From contig JANQKZ010000035.1 in NCBI GenBank assembly GCA_028280845.1, positions 248,001 through 312,000 on the forward strand: DNA of 64,000 bases, given 5' to 3'. Position 1 is the stretch's first letter, and each line of letters opens with the position of its first letter. Below the pieces are notes generated by a model. It saw nothing but the letters and a program-made list of their open reading frames with translations, searched no databases and was not told where the DNA came from. The position numbers and the translations under genes are program-made. This document shows, piece by piece, positions 17,143 through 44,122 of the stretch. The DNA is from Opitutales bacterium. Its GTDB lineage: Bacteria; Verrucomicrobiota; Verrucomicrobiia; Opitutales; JABSRG01.

Positions 17143-18264
17143 TTAGAGTTCCCAGGGGGCTGGTTGTATGAAATCAGAAATTATTTCTACAGGTTCCCCG
17201 TTGCTTGAGGAGGATGTTTCTATCGCTTGAATTACCTCAATAACATGGGATGCATGGGAGGCTTGGGCTTTATGGGGTTTGTCGTTTTTTATCGCAATAG
17301 CGAGATCTTCGACCCCTCTTGCGTAATTTTTTGCGGTTAGGGTGTATTTTCCATGCTCCACTGAATCATAGCCTTTCCCGAATTCGGCAAATTCCACTTG
17401 CGAATCATAATCCTGGAAATTCCCGAGGTATAACATCCCTTCGTCTCCAAATATTTCCAAGGAACGTCCGGTTTTACTCCGGGCCGCATAAAAGTTGGCA
17501 CTCAACCTAGCCGTTAGGCCTGAATCGAATTCAAGGGTCGCCAAGTAGTAGTCGGGTGTTGAAATCTGAAAGGGCCGGCCTTCCTTGGTTGTACGATTGG
17601 GATAGAGCAGTTTGGCAAATCCACTTACTGTTTGGATTCTGCCAAAGAAGGCGGTCAGGAGGGTGATCTGATAAATACCGGCATCCCATAACCCTCCAAC
17701 TTCGTAAAACGGTTCGGGATTGGGGTGCCAGGATTCAATGCGACCCTGGTTGACTTCGGCGTAGGCCAGTCTGGGGGTACCAATTCTCCCTTGTTGGAGT
17801 TGATTCCAAGTTGCGGTTTGGGCGGCTCCAAGGAAATGGGCTGGAGCACTGCTAAGGCGTAACTTATTTGTATTTGCCAACTCAACGAGTTCTTTGGCCT
17901 CTTTGTAAGATAAGGCCAGGGGTATCTCCGTATGAACATGCTTCCCAGCCTCCAGGCAGCGGGAAATGATCTCATGATGAGCGTGATGAATCGTTAAATT
18001 GACCACGATGTCGATTCGACGGTCGCGCAGCATTTCCTCCAAATCGTGAAACACCTCTCCTCCAAATTGATGGGAGAATTGTTCGGCACGCGATTCCTCC
18101 AGGTCGGAAAATCCCAGGATATTGACGTGACTGGAGTCTTGAAGGCATTCCGTGTAGAACTTGGCTACATTTCCGCAGCCTACGATTCCGATATTTAATC
18201 GCTTATCCACCACTCTACGGCTTGGAATTGGGTCCATATAAAAGGGATTGAGAAAGTGGTCCAT
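17143..18264 (-). CDS. Gfo/Idh/MocA-family oxidoreductase
   Basis: Cytosolic NAD(P)-dependent sugar dehydrogenase-like protein, 373 residues. The Rossmann fold starts 'LNIGIVGCGNVAKFYTE'. The usual E-K-P motif is changed to 'HVHTEIPLALS', so the conserved catalytic-region lysine appears to be replaced by isoleucine, which may mean altered chemistry. The second domain carries 'GLWDAGIYQITLLTAFFG', matching the D-x-G-x-x-x pattern. ATG 18264 is used; an internal ATG (MDPIPSRR) at 18237 is equally possible. It is separated by 300 bp from the next Gfo/Idh/MocA gene on the same strand and may belong to the same sugar-modifying group. Confidence 0.85.
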   Translation of the reverse strand: MDHFLNPFYMDPIPSRRVVDKRLNIGIVGCGNVAKFYTECLQDSSHVNILGFSDLEESRAEQFSHQFGGEVFHDLEEMLRDRRIDIVVNLTIHHAHHEIISRCLEAGKHVHTEIPLALSYKEAKELVELANTNKLRLSSAPAHFLGAAQTATWNQLQQGRIGTPRLAYAEVNQGRIESWHPNPEPFYEVGGLWDAGIYQITLLTAFFGRIQTVSGFAKLLYPNRTTKEGRPFQISTPDYYLATLEFDSGLTARLSANFYAARSKTGRSLEIFGDEGMLYLGNFQDYDSQVEFAEFGKGYDSVEHGKYTLTAKNYARGVEDLAIAIKNDKPHKAQASHASHVIEVIQAIETSSSSNGEPVEIISDFIQPAPWEL

Positions 18265-18564: not shown

Positions 18565-19560
18565 TCAATCCAACTCGATGGCTTTTCCATTGTTCTTGGC
18601 AGATTCATACACGGCGAAGATCTGTTTTAGATTTCTCACCCCGGTTTCGGCATCAACAGCGGGGTTGCAGCCCTCTTTGATGGCCTGGCTGAAATCATCG
18701 AATTGGGCCGCGAACTGGGTGATATCTCCACCGGTGAAATGCGCCGATTCTGACCCCGAAGGCCCGAGCAGTTCCACTTCCGCTTCGGAAAACGGTCCGA
18801 TGGAGTCACTGGCCATAAGCGTCCCTTTCGTCCCGTAGAGTTCGAAAACATTGTGTCGGTGGGGTACTGCAAAGGAGCCTTCTACGATCCCGATTGCACC
18901 GTTGGCGTGGGTGGTGACTGCTACAGCCGTGTCTTCCGCCGTGGAGTTATATACGGCGCCCGACGCCACCCCATTGACTTTTGTGATCCGTCCCAAAACA
19001 TGTTCCAATTGTTCGATGTTGTGTGAACCGACATCGGCAAAGGCGCCGCCAATGCCTTTGCCGGGGTCCCACCGCCAAGCGTCTTCTTGAGGGGGGGATT
19101 CCAACAGAGTCTGCACTTTGGCCAGGACGATTTTCCCAAGTGTCCCCTCATCCACCTTCTTTTTCATCCAGATATGCGCGGGATGATGCCGCCGCATAAA
19201 CCCGACGCCAAGCCTGAGATTGCTCTTCTCTGCGAAATCCCTGAGCAACTCGGCTTCCTTAATATTCAGCGTCATGGGCTTTTCGAGTAGTACATGCTTA
19301 CCCGCCTCCATGGCCCGCTGCCCTAAATCAAAGTGCGTGTCCACCGGTGTCGCGATGTAGACGGCATCCACCTTCGCCCTCCGAAGAAAGTCATCCACAT
19401 CGCTCCAAACCTCCACCTCGGGATGGTCTCTGGTAAATTCGACGCTTCCGCTCCGCGTGACCACGCTCGTCAACAGCGAACCGGACGACTGTATGATACC
19501 GGTCAACGGCTTAAGCCGGGCAAAGCCACTAATTCCAATGAATCCCCACCGAATAGTCAT
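18565..19560 (-). CDS. Gfo/Idh/MocA-family oxidoreductase
   Basis: NAD(P)-dependent dehydrogenase-like protein of 331 residues. Features: 'IRWGFIGISGFARLKPL' (Rossmann loop, with GxSGxA in place of GxGxxG), 'VDAVYIATPVDTHFDLGQRAMEAGKHVLLEKPMTLN' with the canonical EKP, 'GVGFMRRHHPAHIWMKK' and 'GGAFADVGSHNIEQLEHVLG' with the D-x-x-x-H pair expected for catalysis. It starts 3 bp after the DegT-type aminotransferase stop and is its operon partner, the arrangement seen in keto-sugar/amino-sugar routes where oxidation precedes transamination. The exact sugar is unknown. Confidence 0.9.
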   Translation of the reverse strand: MTIRWGFIGISGFARLKPLTGIIQSSGSLLTSVVTRSGSVEFTRDHPEVEVWSDVDDFLRRAKVDAVYIATPVDTHFDLGQRAMEAGKHVLLEKPMTLNIKEAELLRDFAEKSNLRLGVGFMRRHHPAHIWMKKKVDEGTLGKIVLAKVQTLLESPPQEDAWRWDPGKGIGGAFADVGSHNIEQLEHVLGRITKVNGVASGAVYNSTAEDTAVAVTTHANGAIGIVEGSFAVPHRHNVFELYGTKGTLMASDSIGPFSEAEVELLGPSGSESAHFTGGDITQFAAQFDDFSQAIKEGCNPAVDAETGVRNLKQIFAVYESAKNNGKAIELD

Positions 19561-19563
19561 CTG

Positions 19564-20856
19564 TCATTCTTCCTTAGCTTGAACGCTGGCCCGGTTGCTT
19601 CCCGGATTTCCGACACCGGCCGCTTCCAGGCCCCTCAGCTCGTGGACATTCGCTTTAATCTTCCACATGGCATCCACGATGTCGTCGATCTCCTTGTGCG
19701 TCCCCAACAAAGCATGCTGCAAAATGAGGAATCCTTCCTCCTGGCAAGCCTTCTCCGCAGCCGGGCAGGGCACCTTGCTCCAGGTCGAAGTCGGGAAGAG
19801 CGCCCCGGCCACGGTTCCGTCGGGACGGAACATCTCACCCTGATAAAGGGGGATGGGATAAACCGGGCTCACCACACCGATGCCTTCAGCAGCCATAGCC
19901 TCGATAAACTGGCCCCGAGTACAGCCAAATTCCTCCTGGCGAATTTTCATCGGCGCAAAGTTATAGCCGTGCCTCGTGGTATAGGGGGCCCATTCCATGG
20001 GTTCTATACCCTCAATTTCCCGGACTCGTTTGTTCAGATACTTTGCGTTATCTATGCGGGTCTGGGTCTGTTGGTCCAATCGGGTCATTTGCGCGAGGAT
20101 AATCGCGGCCTGAAACTCAGAAAGCATCTGGTTCCAGGCCAGTTCCTTGTGGTGGTACCAGGGCTTGCCCGGCTCGCGACCGAACTCGTTCAGGGTCCAG
20201 CAGGTGTAACTCCACAGTTCCTCATCATTACAGGTCAGCATGCCCCCTTCGCCAGCTGTCACATTTTTGAATTGTTGAAAGCTGAAGGAATGGAAATCTC
20301 CATACTTACCCGTGCGGTTGCCCTTGTATTCCGCGCCATGCGACTGGGCCGTATCGTATAACACCTTGATGTTGTGCTCCCCGGCAATTCGTGCAATTTC
20401 GTCCAGGTCGCAGGGTTGGCCGTAGAGCTGTACCGGTATCACCGCTTTGGTCTTGTCCGTGATGGCGGATTCGAAACTTTTCGGATCCATATTATAGGTG
20501 TCCGGATCGATATCGACAAAAACGCACTTCGCACCGAGCTTCAAGGGAGCCATCGGAGTGGCTATCATCGTAAAACACGGAAGGATAACTTCGTCGCCTG
20601 GGCGCACGCCGAGGGCATAGAGACCAATCTCCATCGTGACGGTTCCGTTGTTCATCCCAATGCCGTGTTTTGCCCCTTGGTATTGGGCAAATTTATCCAT
20701 CAGTTCGAGTAGTTTGGGACCGTGCACGGAGCCGCCCCAGGCTTCGCTATCGAGCACCTCTTTCAGCTGGGTCAATTCCTCGTCGCCGTAGAGGGGCCAT
20801 TTGGGGAAGGGTTGAGTTCGCAAGGGATTTCCACCGCAGATAGCTAGCTGTGACAT
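19564..20856 (-). CDS. DegT/DnrJ/EryC1/StrS-family aminotransferase
   Basis: PLP-dependent sugar aminotransferase, 430 residues from ATG 20856, which has a GGAG sequence about 10 nt upstream; the longer frame to 20946 lacks this. 'LAICGGNPLRTQPFPKWP' is typical of the scyllo-inosose aminotransferase/StsC-like branch. PLP elements are 'GMNNGTVTMEIGLYALG', 'DEVILPCFTMIAT', 'KVLYDTAQSHGAEY' and Lys197 in QQFKNVTAGEGG. The reaction would be transfer of an amino group from glutamate or glutamine to a keto-sugar or keto-cyclitol. It is coupled to a downstream dehydrogenase (3-bp gap). A palindromic operator-like site lies about 170 bp upstream. Confidence 0.9.
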   Translation of the reverse strand: MSQLAICGGNPLRTQPFPKWPLYGDEELTQLKEVLDSEAWGGSVHGPKLLELMDKFAQYQGAKHGIGMNNGTVTMEIGLYALGVRPGDEVILPCFTMIATPMAPLKLGAKCVFVDIDPDTYNMDPKSFESAITDKTKAVIPVQLYGQPCDLDEIARIAGEHNIKVLYDTAQSHGAEYKGNRTGKYGDFHSFSFQQFKNVTAGEGGMLTCNDEELWSYTCWTLNEFGREPGKPWYHHKELAWNQMLSEFQAAIILAQMTRLDQQTQTRIDNAKYLNKRVREIEGIEPMEWAPYTTRHGYNFAPMKIRQEEFGCTRGQFIEAMAAEGIGVVSPVYPIPLYQGEMFRPDGTVAGALFPTSTWSKVPCPAAEKACQEEGFLILQHALLGTHKEIDDIVDAMWKIKANVHELRGLEAAGVGNPGSNRASVQAKEE

Positions 20857-21218
20857 GGGTATTATTTCTCCGGAATCAATGGGTTGATGAATAATGGGGT
20901 TTAAAAATGACTGAGTCCCGCTCGGGCCTACCCGCTTCCTGCACAAAAAAAGTCACTGTGGCATGGATCGAAGCTTTTCCCAAATAAGCAGTAGGGGGAG
21001 TGGGAAGTGACATTATTTTTTGAGTCATACTTATTTTCAAACAAAAATAAGTCAACTATGGAAATCATTTCTCCCTATGATCACCGAGGTTTTTGATCGA
21101 GGCGCTACCGGGAATCCGATCTCAGCGTAGGCTCGACATTTTTTCGACACAGATCAGGAGCGCCTTGCTGGACCCCAAAATCGCTGCAACCCACACGGCA
21201 ATGAATTTCTCAAACGCC
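20857..21218. other. Intergenic region upstream of the aminotransferase
   Basis: 362 bases without a gene. The notable element is the palindrome at 21029-21052, listed separately. The gap, the palindrome and the compositional change suggest that the aminotransferase-dehydrogenase pair has its own promoter here. Confidence 0.4.
21029..21052. promoter_or_regulatory. AT-rich palindrome, candidate operator
   Basis: ACTTATTTT (21029-21037) and AAAATAAGT (21044-21052) form a perfect 9-bp inverted repeat around CAAACA. The architecture TTATTTT-N6-AAAATAA recurs upstream of other genes in the window (55328-55347, and with mismatches at 28718-28737 and 23433-23452), which supports a regulatory role over chance. 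Confidence 0.45.
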
Positions 21219-21923
21219 CTAATGGCTTATCAGTTCCAAATCAGCCTCAACGCGAATCAGCATTTCCCTGATTCTCGTTATAATTTGCGCAACATACGCT
21301 GCTCCCTTCTCTCCTGTAGCGTTCCTTGGAGTTGTCGATTCATCACAATTGACGGTACTTTCATCAAGGTGGGTCATTCTGGTATGAGCTCTATCCAGGT
21401 AGAGCATGAAGGAGGTTTCAAAAACGGTGGCATGCCCGAAGTGGCCAAGTTGATCAGCTTCATTAAAAGGTATAATTCGAACTAATGAATTAGGGTCGGA
21501 ATTAAACTTATCTGCTATATCGTAGGTCATTTTTCGCTGAATGGGGGGATAATGACCGGTATACAATATTAGGGCTTTTATTCCTATTTGGGCAATCTGC
21601 TCAATAATTTCAACCAGGTGGGACTCCGCAGACCTGTCCGTATATAGATTACCTAGTCCTACAACATATTTGTTATAATCATCATCTTCAAGGAAGTGGA
21701 TGCCCGAGTAGAAATGGGGAGGGAAAACGATACCTCCGATGGCATTGGCAACCTGACAACAAATTAAATGAGCCTTTATGGAATCATGCCCCATATTTAA
21801 GTGTTCCCCATGATATTCCAGGCAGCCTATTGGTAAAAAACCAAACCGATACTTCTTAATATTGGTTGAGGCTTCCTTTCCAATCATTAGCTCATATTGA
21901 ACCTGTCTGCTACCTTTATTCAT
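21219..21923 (-). CDS. Creatininase-family metallohydrolase
   Basis: 234-residue amidohydrolase of the creatininase superfamily, which includes creatinine amidohydrolase, FAPy deformylase and MftE-type peptidases. Metal-site elements are visible: 'FLPIGCLEYHGEHLNMGHDS' supplies Glu36, His38 and Asp47 at the expected spacing, 'LILYTGHYPP' supplies His124, and 'GHFGHATVFETSFML' supplies the later Glu. The 'NATGEKGAAYVAQII' end is also typical. The family cleaves C-N bonds, usually cyclic or simple amides. It begins 6 bp after the AAC(3)-TIM fusion gene, so the two probably work on the same N-acyl or amide compound. Composition is more AT-rich than the 30-60 kb genes. Confidence 0.85.
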   Translation of the reverse strand: MNKGSRQVQYELMIGKEASTNIKKYRFGFLPIGCLEYHGEHLNMGHDSIKAHLICCQVANAIGGIVFPPHFYSGIHFLEDDDYNKYVVGLGNLYTDRSAESHLVEIIEQIAQIGIKALILYTGHYPPIQRKMTYDIADKFNSDPNSLVRIIPFNEADQLGHFGHATVFETSFMLYLDRAHTRMTHLDESTVNCDESTTPRNATGEKGAAYVAQIITRIREMLIRVEADLELISH

Positions 21924-21929
21924 AGATCG

Positions 21930-23363
21930 TTAGATGGAATCCAAGAGTTTGATAAACTGCTCCGAAATTTCACTAAGTTTAAAGTTGGAAGGGTAACCAA
22001 AAGTCGTGTCTCCATCGAAATTCCTACATCGCAAAATGGATACCAATTCCCTGATCTCTGCATTTCCCTCCATCAGGGGAGAATAATGACCGTTGTTTGA
22101 CCCATCATTTAAATACAGCTTATCAATAAATTTCCTGAGGTGAGGAATGTATCCCTCCAAAAAGGGTTTGGTTCCTGTGAAAACAAGGGTTGCCGGATTG
22201 AAAGCGAACTTAATCTCCGTATTTTTAATATGGTGGTTGATTAGAAAAAGCGTTGTATTCAAATCCGTATGTGTGTTTTCAAAAAACACCGAGACTCCTT
22301 GTTCCAAATAAGGGGCAAAAATATTCAAATCAGGATAGTGGGCCAACGGTAGAGTGAGGGAAGAAATACCGAAATTGACCATTTCAGCGGAGTAACAAGG
22401 ACGGAAATCAAGATAGGGGATTCTCAATCCAGAAACCCTGATGCCGGCAGCCCTGAAGTCCTCGATAATCCTTTCTCTTTCAGATTCCGACAGCTGAAGA
22501 AAAGGTCTGTCTTTGATGATATCGAGCTCGATCGTTTCTATTCCTGTATCGGTGAGGTTGTTGATGATTTCATCGGTGAACACCCCACTGCAGGAGGAAG
22601 TGGTGACCAGGTTAAAGGATTCCTCCTTTAACCGTTGTTTAAACAATGCCGCCCTTTGCATCCGGCCATCGGCACAATTGGGATTGTCGCTTAAGAATAA
22701 AGCCGGGTCTTTTTCTACCTCATGGGACAATATACGGATCATGTCGGAAGATTGGATGACCCGGGTAATGGCGCGACCAATTGTACCTTTTGTCATTATT
22801 CCGGAACGGGCAAGTAAAGGATCAATCCCAATAAAATCTCTGTGAGGACCGGAGCAATATCGCCATTCCTTTTCGAGCACCTTACCCGATTTGGTTTTCA
22901 TACGTTTTCGCTTGGTTGTCAGGTAGGGCAAGCGGTGCGCTTCTTCAACGGAATGGATGGTGGTATTTCGATCCTGGTCCACTCCCACCAGCATTATTTT
23001 ACCTCCGGATTCCGCGATTTTAGTATAAGGGGATCCCGCTCCACGGGGAGATAGGCAATGGATATGATCCCGGCAGAGGAACGCAGCATCTTTTCCGATA
23101 GCGGCGATGTGAACCCCTGGACCATCACTCCAGATACTTCGCTCATCCTGACTGATCAGATCGCTCAGGACCCCGAACTCTCCAAAGGCGGGAGTCGCCA
23201 GGGTGCCATTCTCGCCGAGCAGTTCCAACAAGGTATCAATAAACCCCTGAGGCCCTCCTTCCACCCCACCAATACTTGAAAAGCTGGAATGCAGTAAAAC
23301 GATATCTCCCCGAGTAATCCCGAGATCGATGAAAGAAGTTTTTAATTCTTTCCTGGTGATCAT
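21930..23363 (-). CDS. AAC(3)-like N-acetyltransferase fused to a TIM-barrel epimerase-like domain
   Basis: 477-residue two-domain protein. Residues 1 to about 260 match the aminoglycoside 3-N-acetyltransferase (antibiotic_NAT) family: 'GDIVLLHSSFSSIGGVEGGPQGFIDTLLELLGENGTLATPAFG' has the acetyl-CoA-binding pattern, and 'DRNTTIHSVEEA' (His137 region) matches the conserved N-T-x-x-H-x-x-E active-site segment. Residues about 270-477 look like a xylose-isomerase-like/AP-endonuclease-2 TIM barrel: 'VSVFFENTHTD', 'IKFAFNPATLVFTG' and 'IDKLYLNDGS' correspond to the E-N-H, D-P and H-x-K-D strands. The predicted activity is N-acylation of an amino sugar or aminocyclitol plus isomerase or hydrolase-type chemistry. 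The domain pairing is unusual. A resistance role is possible but the context favours metabolism. Confidence 0.82.
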   Translation of the reverse strand: MITRKELKTSFIDLGITRGDIVLLHSSFSSIGGVEGGPQGFIDTLLELLGENGTLATPAFGEFGVLSDLISQDERSIWSDGPGVHIAAIGKDAAFLCRDHIHCLSPRGAGSPYTKIAESGGKIMLVGVDQDRNTTIHSVEEAHRLPYLTTKRKRMKTKSGKVLEKEWRYCSGPHRDFIGIDPLLARSGIMTKGTIGRAITRVIQSSDMIRILSHEVEKDPALFLSDNPNCADGRMQRAALFKQRLKEESFNLVTTSSCSGVFTDEIINNLTDTGIETIELDIIKDRPFLQLSESERERIIEDFRAAGIRVSGLRIPYLDFRPCYSAEMVNFGISSLTLPLAHYPDLNIFAPYLEQGVSVFFENTHTDLNTTLFLINHHIKNTEIKFAFNPATLVFTGTKPFLEGYIPHLRKFIDKLYLNDGSNNGHYSPLMEGNAEIRELVSILRCRNFDGDTTFGYPSNFKLSEISEQFIKLLDSI

Positions 23364-23953
23364 GGGTGTCTAGTCTGGGCTCCGAAAGCGGATAATTCGT
23401 CTGGCAGAGCTGCGTGTCCGATTTTCGTCTAATTATTTTAAAATCGAAAAAAGGTGGGAGATCCGTGCCCCGTTGTCAAAGGAAATAAGGGAGCTTAACC
23501 GGTAATCCCGGGAAAGTAGACGAACCAGAAACTCCGCTTTCATACCGCGAATCGTAAGCCTCGAACGGGAAAACGCGGTCTACACTAACATCAACTGTGG
23601 ATATGACCGGCAGGACTGGTTTTTTTAGCGGGGGGGGCGCACATCTAGTCCCTGAAGCCAACCTGTGAGAAGTAGTTCAACTTAGGGCCATTCCGAGATG
23701 ACCCCCTTTGTACTCCTCTACATCACCATTGACAAAATCGAATCAACTCTAGACGACTCAATCTTCCGATCAATGGGTCTGCTGTAATCGGCCTGGACAA
23801 CGTCAATCCATCAGCAAGGTCAGAATCATGATTTGACCCCTTTTTCTCTTGCTCAGTGTAAAAGGAAAACGGCCCCCAAATCTGGGCGGTGACCTTGACA
23901 AAAGCGCTTGACACTCAGGGGAGGCGGAGAAGAATAAGGAAACCTAATCAAAA
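23364..23953. other. Long intergenic region inside the accessory segment
   Basis: 590 bases between divergent genes with no supportable gene. TTATTTT-AAAATC-GAAAAAA at 23433-23452 is a degenerate version of the palindrome at 21029. TTGACA occurs at 23893-23898 and again at 23909-23914; the second is followed after 18 nt by GAATAA and could be the promoter of the membrane-protein pair. A GGGCCATTCC patch near 23685-23694 resembles the flanks of the palindromic element at 28.9 kb. Confidence 0.35.
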
Positions 23954-24373
23954 TTGAGTAGGAACCGAAAGAAAGCTCAGAAGGAGCAGATAGCCGAGCT
24001 GACGGCGGAGAACCGGTTTTTAAGGGGAAGCCGCAGAGGGGAATCTTTTGCCTCTGTATGCAACAATCTGATCAAATGGGGAGGTGCCGTTGGGATTTCT
24101 TTTTTTATATTCAAGACCATCGAAACGCTGGCGGGTAAGGAGACCGAGGCCGCAATAGGTATCGCGATCCTTGGCGATGTGAATGTCAGTGTTGCCCTTT
24201 CCTGGACTTTAACTACATTAGCTATTGGATATGGTCTACGCCAACGACACCTAAGAAAACGAACAATTCACCGCTTCGGCGGTCACGTAAAGGATACCGA
24301 AACAGCAATTGACCCTAAAAGAACCTCCAGCGGCCTAACCCCCACCGGAGACACCCACCCCCACGACAAGTAG
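23954..24373 (+). CDS. Small membrane protein of unknown function
   Basis: 139 residues from a TTG start at 23954. A charged N-terminus predicted to form a coiled coil (KKAQKEQIAELTAENRFLRG) precedes two hydrophobic segments (about residues 42-58, GGAVGISFFIFKTIETL, and 74-92, VNVSVALSWTLTTLAIGYG) and a basic, proline-rich hydrophilic tail ending DPKRTSSGLTPTGDTHPHDK. The tail pattern recalls small hypothetical proteins from mobile elements, but no function is recognised. It is followed after 4 bp by a second membrane protein gene, so they probably form a pair. Confidence 0.7.
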   Translation: MSRNRKKAQKEQIAELTAENRFLRGSRRGESFASVCNNLIKWGGAVGISFFIFKTIETLAGKETEAAIGIAILGDVNVSVALSWTLTTLAIGYGLRQRHLRKRTIHRFGGHVKDTETAIDPKRTSSGLTPTGDTHPHDK

Positions 24374-24377
24374 CACC

Positions 24378-25016
24378 ATGGCACCGGAACTTATCTCATT
24401 GATCAGCCTTCTCGGGATATGGATCCTCTTCTTCTGGTTGTACCGAGACTATCGAAACGATAAAATCAGGGAGGAATTATTCAGCCTGAGGGACACCCTG
24501 TTTCAAATGGCGAAACAAGGTGAAATCGAATTTGACAGCAAAGCGTATGGGCGGCTCCGTTCTTCCATCAACGCTACCATTCGCAATGCCCACAAAATTA
24601 CCCTGCTGGACATTATCTTTTTTGATCTATTGGCAGGCCGGCACCTTAACAAAAAGGCCACTGTTGAAGCTATTGGGCACAACTGGAAAACCATCTTCGA
24701 AGAGTATCCCAAGCCTATTCAAAATAAGCTATTTGGAATTCTCAACCAAATGTACTTCCATATATTTGACAAGTTAGTGTTCACCTCTGCCCTTATGGTC
24801 ATGTGTATCTTTCCCGTGGGGATCTACTCCATCCTTCGCGAATTGCGGAATCGCTTCATCCCCATTAGACGGATATGGTCTTGGTTTAAAAAAGTCTTCC
24901 AGCCCCTTTACAACGTGATCGACTTTTTGATCCTGTCAGACCTTGCCACGGAACCGACACCCACCAGGAATCGCCCCGGCAACAAGTTGGCCTACTCCTT
25001 CAGAGCTTCAGATTAA
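24378..25016 (+). CDS. Membrane protein of unknown function
   Basis: 212 residues, ATG at 24378. A first transmembrane segment (LISLISLLGIWILFFWLY) is followed by a charged cytosolic region (residues about 25-130) predicted largely helical, then a second hydrophobic segment (LVFTSALMVMCIFPVGIYSIL), a basic stretch and a short tail. No catalytic motif is visible. It is paired with the upstream 139-residue protein. The 3' end overlaps by about 17 bp the end of an opposite-strand integrase fossil, which suggests that it sits at the edge of a mobile element. Confidence 0.7.
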   Translation: MAPELISLISLLGIWILFFWLYRDYRNDKIREELFSLRDTLFQMAKQGEIEFDSKAYGRLRSSINATIRNAHKITLLDIIFFDLLAGRHLNKKATVEAIGHNWKTIFEEYPKPIQNKLFGILNQMYFHIFDKLVFTSALMVMCIFPVGIYSILRELRNRFIPIRRIWSWFKKVFQPLYNVIDFLILSDLATEPTPTRNRPGNKLAYSFRASD

Positions 25017-41990: not shown

Positions 41991-42632
41991 TCATTTTTCG
42001 TCGTAACAAGCGACCGCGCGGATGGGGGAGCCGTCTCGCCCGGCAAAATTCAGGGGAAAACCGATGAAAAGAAAGGACTCGGGCAATTGGTCGAGGTTGG
42101 CCAGGCCTTCAACGACGACAATCTCCGCATCCGGGCCCAGGAGGATATGGTGGAGCTCAAGCCAGTCCTTTCCGATTGTCGGCATGTCCATCCCGAGGAG
42201 GCGGATCTTGCGGTCGGTCAGATAACGGGCGGCCTCCTGGGTGAAGGACGGGAAATCTTCAAAATAATCGCTCTGGTCGAAATGCTGGTGCCAGCCGGTT
42301 TCGACCAGGATTTTTGCCTCGGGCCGCAAGATATCCTCAAAGGGCTTTAAGTCATCAGCGGTGATTTCCTGGTTGGCTTGCTTAGGAATGCGCAGCACAT
42401 GCGCCTTGCCGAAAAACCAATCCAGGGGCATCTGGTCCACGGTACGACCCTCATCAAAGAAATGAAACATGGCGTCCAGGTGGGTTCCCTGGTGGGTCCC
42501 AATCACAACTTGGCTGATATTGTATTGATGGGTAGAGACCTTCCCATGTGGGATAATGGACAACTTGGGGTCATTGGGGAAAGCTCCAGCTCCGTGCCGG
42601 AGTGGGGAGGATAAATCGATGAGAATGCTCAT
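41991..42632 (-). CDS. Cyclase-family (PF04199-like) metal-dependent hydrolase
   Basis: 213 residues from ATG 42632, which overlaps the transporter stop (ATGA). 'IGTHQGTHLDAMFHFFDEG' is the H-x-G-T-H-x-D motif of the kynurenine formamidase/polyketide cyclase family (a Pro of the usual D-x-P-x-H is Met here). 'LVETGWHQHF' and 'LLGMDMPTIGKDWLELHHILL' are further family segments. The family hydrolyses amides, lactones and related bonds using metal. In this operon a sugar lactonase step is missing otherwise, so lactone opening is a reasonable guess, not shown by sequence. Confidence 0.88.
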   Translation of the reverse strand: MSILIDLSSPLRHGAGAFPNDPKLSIIPHGKVSTHQYNISQVVIGTHQGTHLDAMFHFFDEGRTVDQMPLDWFFGKAHVLRIPKQANQEITADDLKPFEDILRPEAKILVETGWHQHFDQSDYFEDFPSFTQEAARYLTDRKIRLLGMDMPTIGKDWLELHHILLGPDAEIVVVEGLANLDQLPESFLFIGFPLNFAGRDGSPIRAVACYDEK

Positions 42633-44122
42633 AATTTTTCCACCTGGTATCCGCCTCTCGAGCGGTCTTTCCAATACAGGAAGCCGAAGATGACCGCCAC
42701 AGGAATGGCAAACGGCACGAGATACCGGAAAGCGACACGGCCGCCCCGATTGTCTGCGGGGCCGAGAATCTCGGTTCGAATTCTCTGGGCAAGCTCTTCA
42801 GTCCCGTCGGGTGCGTTGCGCAGGGCGGATCGCAAGGCGTTGGCGGTCTCCGCAGGCGGTAGATCCCCGGTGATTTCTGCGGATTGGAGGACGGCCCAGG
42901 TTGCATTCACCGCGTTTTGAGCTTCCTGTCGGCGAAGCTCCTCTTCATCCGCGGCGTGGATGGGGAATTCTGAAACGATCTCCCGTAAGACTTCCCGGGT
43001 TTCTTCAGGAGGAAGGGCATCGTGCAGGTAGACATCCGCAATTCGGCCCATGAGGGGAGCGGTAAAGAGGCCGACCACGAGCATTCCGGTCCCCCCCATG
43101 AGAGCCAGGCCGAGGGCTCCGCTTTTGGGAACCCGTTCGCTGGTGATGCCCAGCAGGGTGGGCCAGATATAGCAGACGCCAACCGCAAAAACCGTGGCGG
43201 ATAAAAACGCCATCCAGGTGGTTTGAGAAAAACTGAACCAGAACAGTCCGATTCCGGTAACAATGGCGGACGCCATGATCAACCCGGTTGGGTAGAGTTT
43301 TTCCACAACGGGGCCGGCGAAGAAACGGAGCACGGCCATTAACCCGTTAATGTAGGCCAGAACCAGGATTCCCGGCAAGCCACCGGACTCCAGGACGGCG
43401 GGAATCCAACGGTTGGGTCCCAGTTCAAGCGAGGCAGTGATGGCAATGGTGAAGAGGAGGAGGAAGAAGAACGGCCGAACCAAGGCTCCTTTCACCATGC
43501 CTGAAAAGGAAACCCCGGACTGGACCCGCTCTGTCTCAGGAAAATCTATATTCAGGAACAAAATTCCGTAAACCAGGGTGGGGATGAGGATCAAGGAGAG
43601 CTTCAACTGCCACAAGTCCAGACCCGCCTTGGAGAGGAGGAAGGCGCTGACCCCTCCGATGAGAATTCCCCCGGGAAACCAGACATGGAATTGATTGAGC
43701 TTCTTGGTTTTTTCCCGCGGATAAAGGGTGGCGACCAGGGGATTGCCGGCAGCTTCCACCGCACCATTTCCCAGAGCAAGGACGAGGGCGCCGACGTAGA
43801 GCATGCCGAAGCCGTTCGCGAAGATCATGATCAGGGTTCCGAGGAGATGGCAGAGGAAAGAAAAACGAAACAGGTTTTTCATGCCCACAATGTCGCACAG
43901 CGGGCCCAGGACGACGATTGAGAGAGCGAAGCCGTAAAGCGCCGCACCACCGATATGGCCCACTTCCTGGTTGGACAAAAGAAACTCCTCCTTCAGGGCG
44001 CCCATAACGGCACCCACGACCCCAAAACAAATCGAGGTGGCCAGGAGGGCAAAACAGCTTCCAAGAAAAAGCCGGCCCGGTGTAGTGGATACATTATTGC
44101 TTCCAGAAGGGGTGTTTTCCAT
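42629..44122 (-). CDS. MFS transporter (FucP-like sugar symporter)
   Basis: 497 residues with about 12 membrane helices; first gene of the 13-gene operon. 'FLLSNQEVGHIGGAALYGFALSIVVLGPLCDIVGMKNL' holds the motif A-like D-x-x-G, and 'LALGNGAVEAAGNPLVATLYPREKTKKLNQFHVWFPGGILIGG' is characteristic of the FucP-like sugar group. Unusually, an acidic, helical insert of about 90 residues (roughly 375-465, 'EETREVLREIV...AADEEELRRQEAQNAVN...') sits between the last two helices. It should import the sugar processed by the operon. The 18-bp AraC-type box lies 124 bp upstream. Confidence 0.9.
   Translation of the reverse strand: MENTPSGSNNVSTTPGRLFLGSCFALLATSICFGVVGAVMGALKEEFLLSNQEVGHIGGAALYGFALSIVVLGPLCDIVGMKNLFRFSFLCHLLGTLIMIFANGFGMLYVGALVLALGNGAVEAAGNPLVATLYPREKTKKLNQFHVWFPGGILIGGVSAFLLSKAGLDLWQLKLSLILIPTLVYGILFLNIDFPETERVQSGVSFSGMVKGALVRPFFFLLLFTIAITASLELGPNRWIPAVLESGGLPGILVLAYINGLMAVLRFFAGPVVEKLYPTGLIMASAIVTGIGLFWFSFSQTTWMAFLSATVFAVGVCYIWPTLLGITSERVPKSGALGLALMGGTGMLVVGLFTAPLMGRIADVYLHDALPPEETREVLREIVSEFPIHAADEEELRRQEAQNAVNATWAVLQSAEITGDLPPAETANALRSALRNAPDGTEELAQRIRTEILGPADNRGGRVAFRYLVPFAIPVAVIFGFLYWKDRSRGGYQVEKL

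Follow-up and report, generated by a model that had tools for sequence, protein, structure and literature searches.

What does a protein do that joins an AAC(3)-like acetyltransferase to a barrel of the kind found in sugar isomerases? Such a protein is encoded in a 64,000-nucleotide stretch of contig JANQKZ010000035.1 from an Opitutales bacterium (hereafter the window). An earlier note on this DNA had read it as a bifunctional enzyme for an N-acyl amino sugar or cyclitol. That note placed the 477-residue chain correctly and left the strand unstated. The gene and its parts lie as follows.

21930..23363, minus strand: fusion of an AAC(3)-like acyltransferase and a xylose-isomerase-like barrel, 477 aa (open reading frame, PF02522, AF2 model, 80-member family)
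22659..23363, minus strand: Antibiotic_NAT (AAC(3)-fold) domain, residues 1-235 (PF02522; AAC(3)-IVa by sequence; Foldseek match 6mn5)
22944..22955, minus strand: putative catalytic pair H137 and E140 (80/80 members; H137 aligns to H154 of AAC(3)-IVa)
22665..22844, minus strand: span with the predicted C3H1 zinc positions H174, S225, C230 and G233 (family alignment; PMC8956665)
21933..22613, minus strand: xylose-isomerase-like (β/α)8 barrel, residues 251-477 (AlphaFold, Foldseek, ligand alignment)

The reading frame opens with ATG and continues for 477 codons without an internal stop; the plus strand of the same interval has many stops. An assembly or frame artefact can be ruled out as the source of the fusion because many independent assemblies carry the same one. 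The acetyltransferase and barrel are thus truly joined in one intact open reading frame. AlphaFold models the whole chain as two domains (pLDDT 93.9, pTM 0.90).

The acyltransferase domain

The N-terminal half matches PF02522 with 120.9 bits (E 7.9e-35), where 25 bits are enough for membership. AAC(3)-IVa is its nearest solved relative both by sequence (6mn3, E 1.1e-22) and by fold (6mn5, ranked first by Foldseek, E 5e-19). Models built for the resistance enzymes themselves score well under their cut-offs, with 114.2 bits against a curated 420 for the AAC(3)-IV equivalog NF033081 and 96 bits against 270 for the AAC(3) model. Every one of the 80 members of the family alignment has H25, H137 and E140, which align with active-site residues of AAC(3)-IVa, where H154 has that role (PMC8956665). 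The segment NTTIHSVEEA, which the earlier note had picked out as the active site of an antibiotic_NAT domain, spans N133 to A142 and does contain H137 and E140.

AAC(3)-IVa, an Antibiotic_NAT protein of group 1 (6MN3-6MN5; PMC8956665), shares with the fusion its fold, its active-site His and Glu and a C-terminal extension, which in AAC(3)-IVa is included in a C3H1 zinc site. Most fusion relatives carry the same pattern in the same place. Of the 80 members, 74 have H-C-C-C at positions 174, 225, 230 and 233, and the pattern is lost jointly in the other six (L169, L174, L175, L177, L178 and the window protein). From this combination of conservation and joint loss, we infer that H174, C225, C230 and C233 are the equivalent of the AAC(3)-IVa zinc site. 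In the window protein, these positions read H-S-C-G, so that H174 and C230 alone remain. Such a broken site could indicate a copy that is losing function.

The two proteins are 26-27% identical and differ where the aminoglycoside is bound. Contact residues of AAC(3)-IVa include W63, D67 and E185 (PMC8956665), which align to F60, a gap and approximately Y169 of the fusion protein, and the contact residues are mostly lost. The loop itself is shorter, with no counterpart in the fusion for positions 39-76 of the PF02522 model, and the fusion has an extra barrel of ~240 residues. Foldseek also matches the acyltransferase fold to FrbF (3SMA), an acyltransferase of FR-900098 biosynthesis with a metabolic rather than a resistance role. 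FrbF has no barrel, and its substrate and pathway differ from those of the fusion.

Other domain combinations were encountered in the course of the searches. In the same class, an AAC(3)-like domain is fused to a neutral/alkaline ceramidase-like domain (L004:1489-3513; PF04734, E 9.8e-9). A single chain of 708 aa unites an AAC(3)-like domain with a DUF4910/DUF2172, M28-peptidase-like domain (L028:9049-11172). The search of the phylum also returned many Antibiotic_NAT proteins of ~900 aa. In one of them (L026:10698-13424), Antibiotic_NAT lies in the C-terminal part (644-855), and no Pfam family matches residues 1-640 well. Re-use of the AAC fold seems to be widespread in this phylum.

The barrel and its metal ligands

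Residues 251-476 are modeled as eight strands alternating with helices. Pfam by itself falls short of a call, since PF01261 reaches only 13.7 bits (E 0.051) in the window protein against a cut-off of 31.1. The same family is matched at E<0.01 in 18 of the 80 relatives (best E 4.2e-17), and four of ten relatives scanned singly pass the curated cut-off (L172, L173, L176 and L180). Folded alone, the barrel has a pLDDT of 92.0. Its best 50 Foldseek matches are xylose-isomerase-like structures only, with E down to 3e-9, and include 3tva, 3p6l, AsbF (3dx5), UlaE, the D-tagatose 3-epimerase-like 3wqo, endonuclease IV and xylose isomerases. The predicted structures confirm a xylose-isomerase-like barrel in the C-terminal half, as read in the earlier note, even though Pfam misses PF01261 in this protein. 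Two of the barrel motifs named there, E-N-H (E362-N363-T-H365) and L-N-D (418-420), are present, but the supposed D-P strand reads N-P (F388-N389-P390).

The fusion shares its fold with known PF01261 barrels (3TVA, 3P6L, AsbF 3DX5 and 3WQO; TM-score by query 0.65-0.74), but it adds an acyltransferase and does not conserve their ligands. The positions of the canonical E-D-H-E ligands, supplied by strands 5-8, are occupied by E362, N389, Y417 and G456 in the window barrel. Alignment finds the complete metal-ligand set in none of the 80 family members. The first position holds Glu in ten members, the second holds Asp in four and the fourth holds Glu in two, while His is never seen at the third. 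A xylose-isomerase-like barrel is likewise joined to an unrelated enzyme domain in 5HMQ, where the partner is a hydroxyphenylpyruvate dioxygenase, different from that of the window fusion.

Other barrel residues are retained almost without exception. N363 is kept in 79 of 80 members, D420, E436, E439 and S442 are kept in all 80, and G433 is also strongly conserved. This conservation, coupled with the lack of ligand sets, suggests that the barrel is under selection, though not as the usual metal enzyme. The isomerase or dehydratase chemistry that is ordinary in this superfamily is unlikely here because all 80 members lack the metal ligands.

The protein might nevertheless be truly bifunctional, with a barrel that isomerises, epimerises or dehydrates a sugar without the usual metal and an AAC half that acylates the product. 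The invariant polar residues exceed what a spacer would need, and the neighboring genes described below are of a sugar type. Even so, the four classical ligands never occur together, and three of the four positions are nearly or wholly devoid of the expected residue. We therefore regard this explanation as unlikely, and the word 'bifunctional' in the earlier note is not supported.

Relatives, partner genes and the window locus

A scan of genome contigs with the single protein found nothing, and when 384 genomes from the class were searched with it, one full-length relative was recovered (G045). A two-sequence profile, run on 388 genomes from the phylum, added ~40 more. With 27 aligned members as the query, relatives were then recovered on 128 contigs from a set of 84,980 species, and 80 of them were retained for the family alignment. 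These are 32-41% identical to the window protein. As submitters name the phyla, fusions occur in about eleven. The majority are from Lentisphaeria and Victivallales, and others are from Kiritimatiellota, Verrucomicrobiota, Planctomycetota, Hydrogenedentota, Latescibacterota, Gemmatimonadota, Acidobacteriota, Spirochaetota, Omnitrophota and Ratteibacteria. One copy (L110:8001-9437) has an in-frame stop and may be a pseudogene or reflect a sequencing error.

The earlier note knew of no characterised protein of this architecture. None was found in the open literature searched either, yet the arrangement is widespread. Domain databases probably list PF02522 with PF01261 already, because the architecture is so common and four relatives exceed the Pfam cut-off for PF01261.

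Most relatives have a characteristic neighbor. Of 79 loci, 57 have a PF04199 'cyclase' gene immediately next to the fusion on the same strand (48 upstream, nine downstream), mostly within 100 bp, and 62 have a cyclase somewhere within the stretch examined. Compared with the canonical HxGTHxD motif, Tyr replaces the second His in all 62 of these proteins and Met replaces the first His in 53, while Cys takes the place of a late Glu in 55. None of the 62 has the canonical metal ligands. They make up a metal-less PF04199 subfamily, represented by L103:5366-6007 and 61 other loci. This neighbor is likely to be a partner of the fusion in most relatives. With relatives on 128 contigs, the fusion is no orphan gene.

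Additional genes are more scattered. The cyclase is the sole recognised neighbor in 38 of 80 loci, and 12 have no recognised neighbor at all. Genes of amino-sugar type are thus close to a minority of the family, which weighs against an amino-sugar role. In a subset from Lentisphaeria, Planctomycetota and Spirochaetota, the fusion and cyclase are joined by creatininase, DegT, Gfo/Idh and NagC-like ROK genes, and a few loci have a PIG-L deacetylase, a NagB-like protein or a GlcNAc 2-epimerase nearby. Besides the window, 14 loci have a creatininase gene together with the fusion. NagB-like genes occur near the fusion in three lineages (L114:13994-14917, L177:10250-11041 and L178:98-1063); two of the proteins were examined and have no Pfam match at E<0.001. 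The DegT, Gfo/Idh, NagC-like ROK, PIG-L, NagB-like and epimerase neighbors point to amino-sugar or aminocyclitol metabolism. Together with the full catalytic set of the AAC half, they agree with the substrate class that had been proposed from the window sequence.

The window locus departs from this pattern. No cyclase partner is found near the fusion in the window, and the following genes lie downstream.

21219..21923, minus strand: creatininase-family gene, 6 bp downstream of the fusion (PF02633, E 6.5e-19)
19564..20946, minus strand: DegT/DnrJ/EryC1/StrS aminotransferase (Pfam; 39% identical to the DegT beside the fusion in L177)
18565..19560, minus strand: Gfo/Idh/MocA dehydrogenase, 3 bp after DegT (32% identical to the Gfo/Idh of fusion locus L175)
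17143..18264, minus strand: second Gfo/Idh/MocA dehydrogenase (33% identical to the Gfo/Idh near the fusion in L118)

The window does contain a cyclase gene at 41991-42674, which we rejected as the missing partner because its HxGTHxD motif is canonical, it sits in another cluster and its match to the partner profile is weak (E 4.7e-16, compared with 1e-32 to 1e-96). The creatininase-family gene is probably co-transcribed with the fusion. The nearest solved relatives of the DegT protein are 2-deoxy-scyllo-inosose aminotransferases, and it retains the PLP-lysine context FQQFKN. It is not an ortholog of the DegT conserved in Lentisphaeria loci, to which it is ~30-34% identical, compared with 61-95% among those proteins themselves. 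It possibly, though not certainly, acts in the same pathway as the fusion.

Base composition separates these genes into two pairs. The fusion (GC 0.459) and creatininase gene (0.418) are low for a window that averages 0.555 (sd 0.038 over stretches of 1434 nt). Normal values are found for DegT and the first Gfo/Idh gene (0.545-0.549). The low-GC pair belongs to a segment (20794-25016, GC ~0.42-0.48) that also includes two small genes at 23954-25016; its recent acquisition is possible. Among 373 genomes of the order, that of the window is the only one with a full-length fusion. Because of this rarity and their low GC, the fusion and creatininase genes were probably acquired together. A functional tie to the DegT and Gfo/Idh pair is plausible but unproven, and the difference in GC means that chance may have brought the two pairs together.

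The exact position of the window protein in the tree is uncertain, since its branch is long (1.68) and its placement as sister of the main clade is moderately supported (82/76). The absence of a cyclase partner, the creatininase gene in its stead and the broken zinc site mark this copy as a divergent, derived member, and it was probably transferred.

Function of the fusion

The explanation that we favor, with modest confidence, is a metabolic one: the fusion would be a CoA-dependent enzyme that N-acylates a small amino sugar or cyclitol and whose barrel handles the acceptor. The AAC(3)-fold half would use H25, H137 and E140 to move an acyl group from CoA to an amino group on a small sugar or aminocyclitol, and this reaction would belong to sugar metabolism. 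The barrel would descend from a metal-dependent sugar isomerase or epimerase whose metal site is gone, and most likely binds or positions the acceptor today. In most relatives, the metal-less PF04199 protein likely works as a partner. A more speculative extension, which we consider rather doubtful, is that the fusion and the metal-less cyclase-fold protein form one enzyme for amino-sugar or aminocyclitol N-acylation in about eleven phyla. Two former metal enzymes would then have become non-metal, substrate-handling parts of this module.

The AAC fold could instead perform other acyl chemistry, such as amide hydrolysis or a CoA-independent acyl exchange that involves the cyclase-like protein. 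Neighbors with amidohydrolase folds (cyclase and creatininase) and the related AAC domains fused to ceramidase-like or M28-peptidase-like hydrolases would fit such a role, but the acetyltransferase catalytic set is entirely retained and the partner cyclase lacks hydrolytic ligands of its own, which makes this improbable. Least credible is a role in aminoglycoside resistance, with the fusion as an AAC(3) enzyme that carries an additional domain: PF02522 membership and kinship to AAC(3)-IV speak for it, but the low scores against both resistance models, the missing aminoglycoside-binding loop, neighborhoods that are metabolic and neither mobile nor of resistance type, and hosts that are mostly uncultured lineages make it very unlikely.

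The fusion thus looks like an amino-sugar enzyme and not a resistance gene. To our knowledge, AAC(3)-fold enzymes have been studied almost solely as resistance factors. If the N-acyltransferase explanation is true, a large family with an AAC(3) core, a shortened loop, a barrel and metabolic neighbors would represent a metabolic use of this fold. In gut and rumen metagenomes, its members risk being annotated in error as resistance genes. The fusion and its decayed cyclase would also offer a concrete two-protein system that is open to testing.
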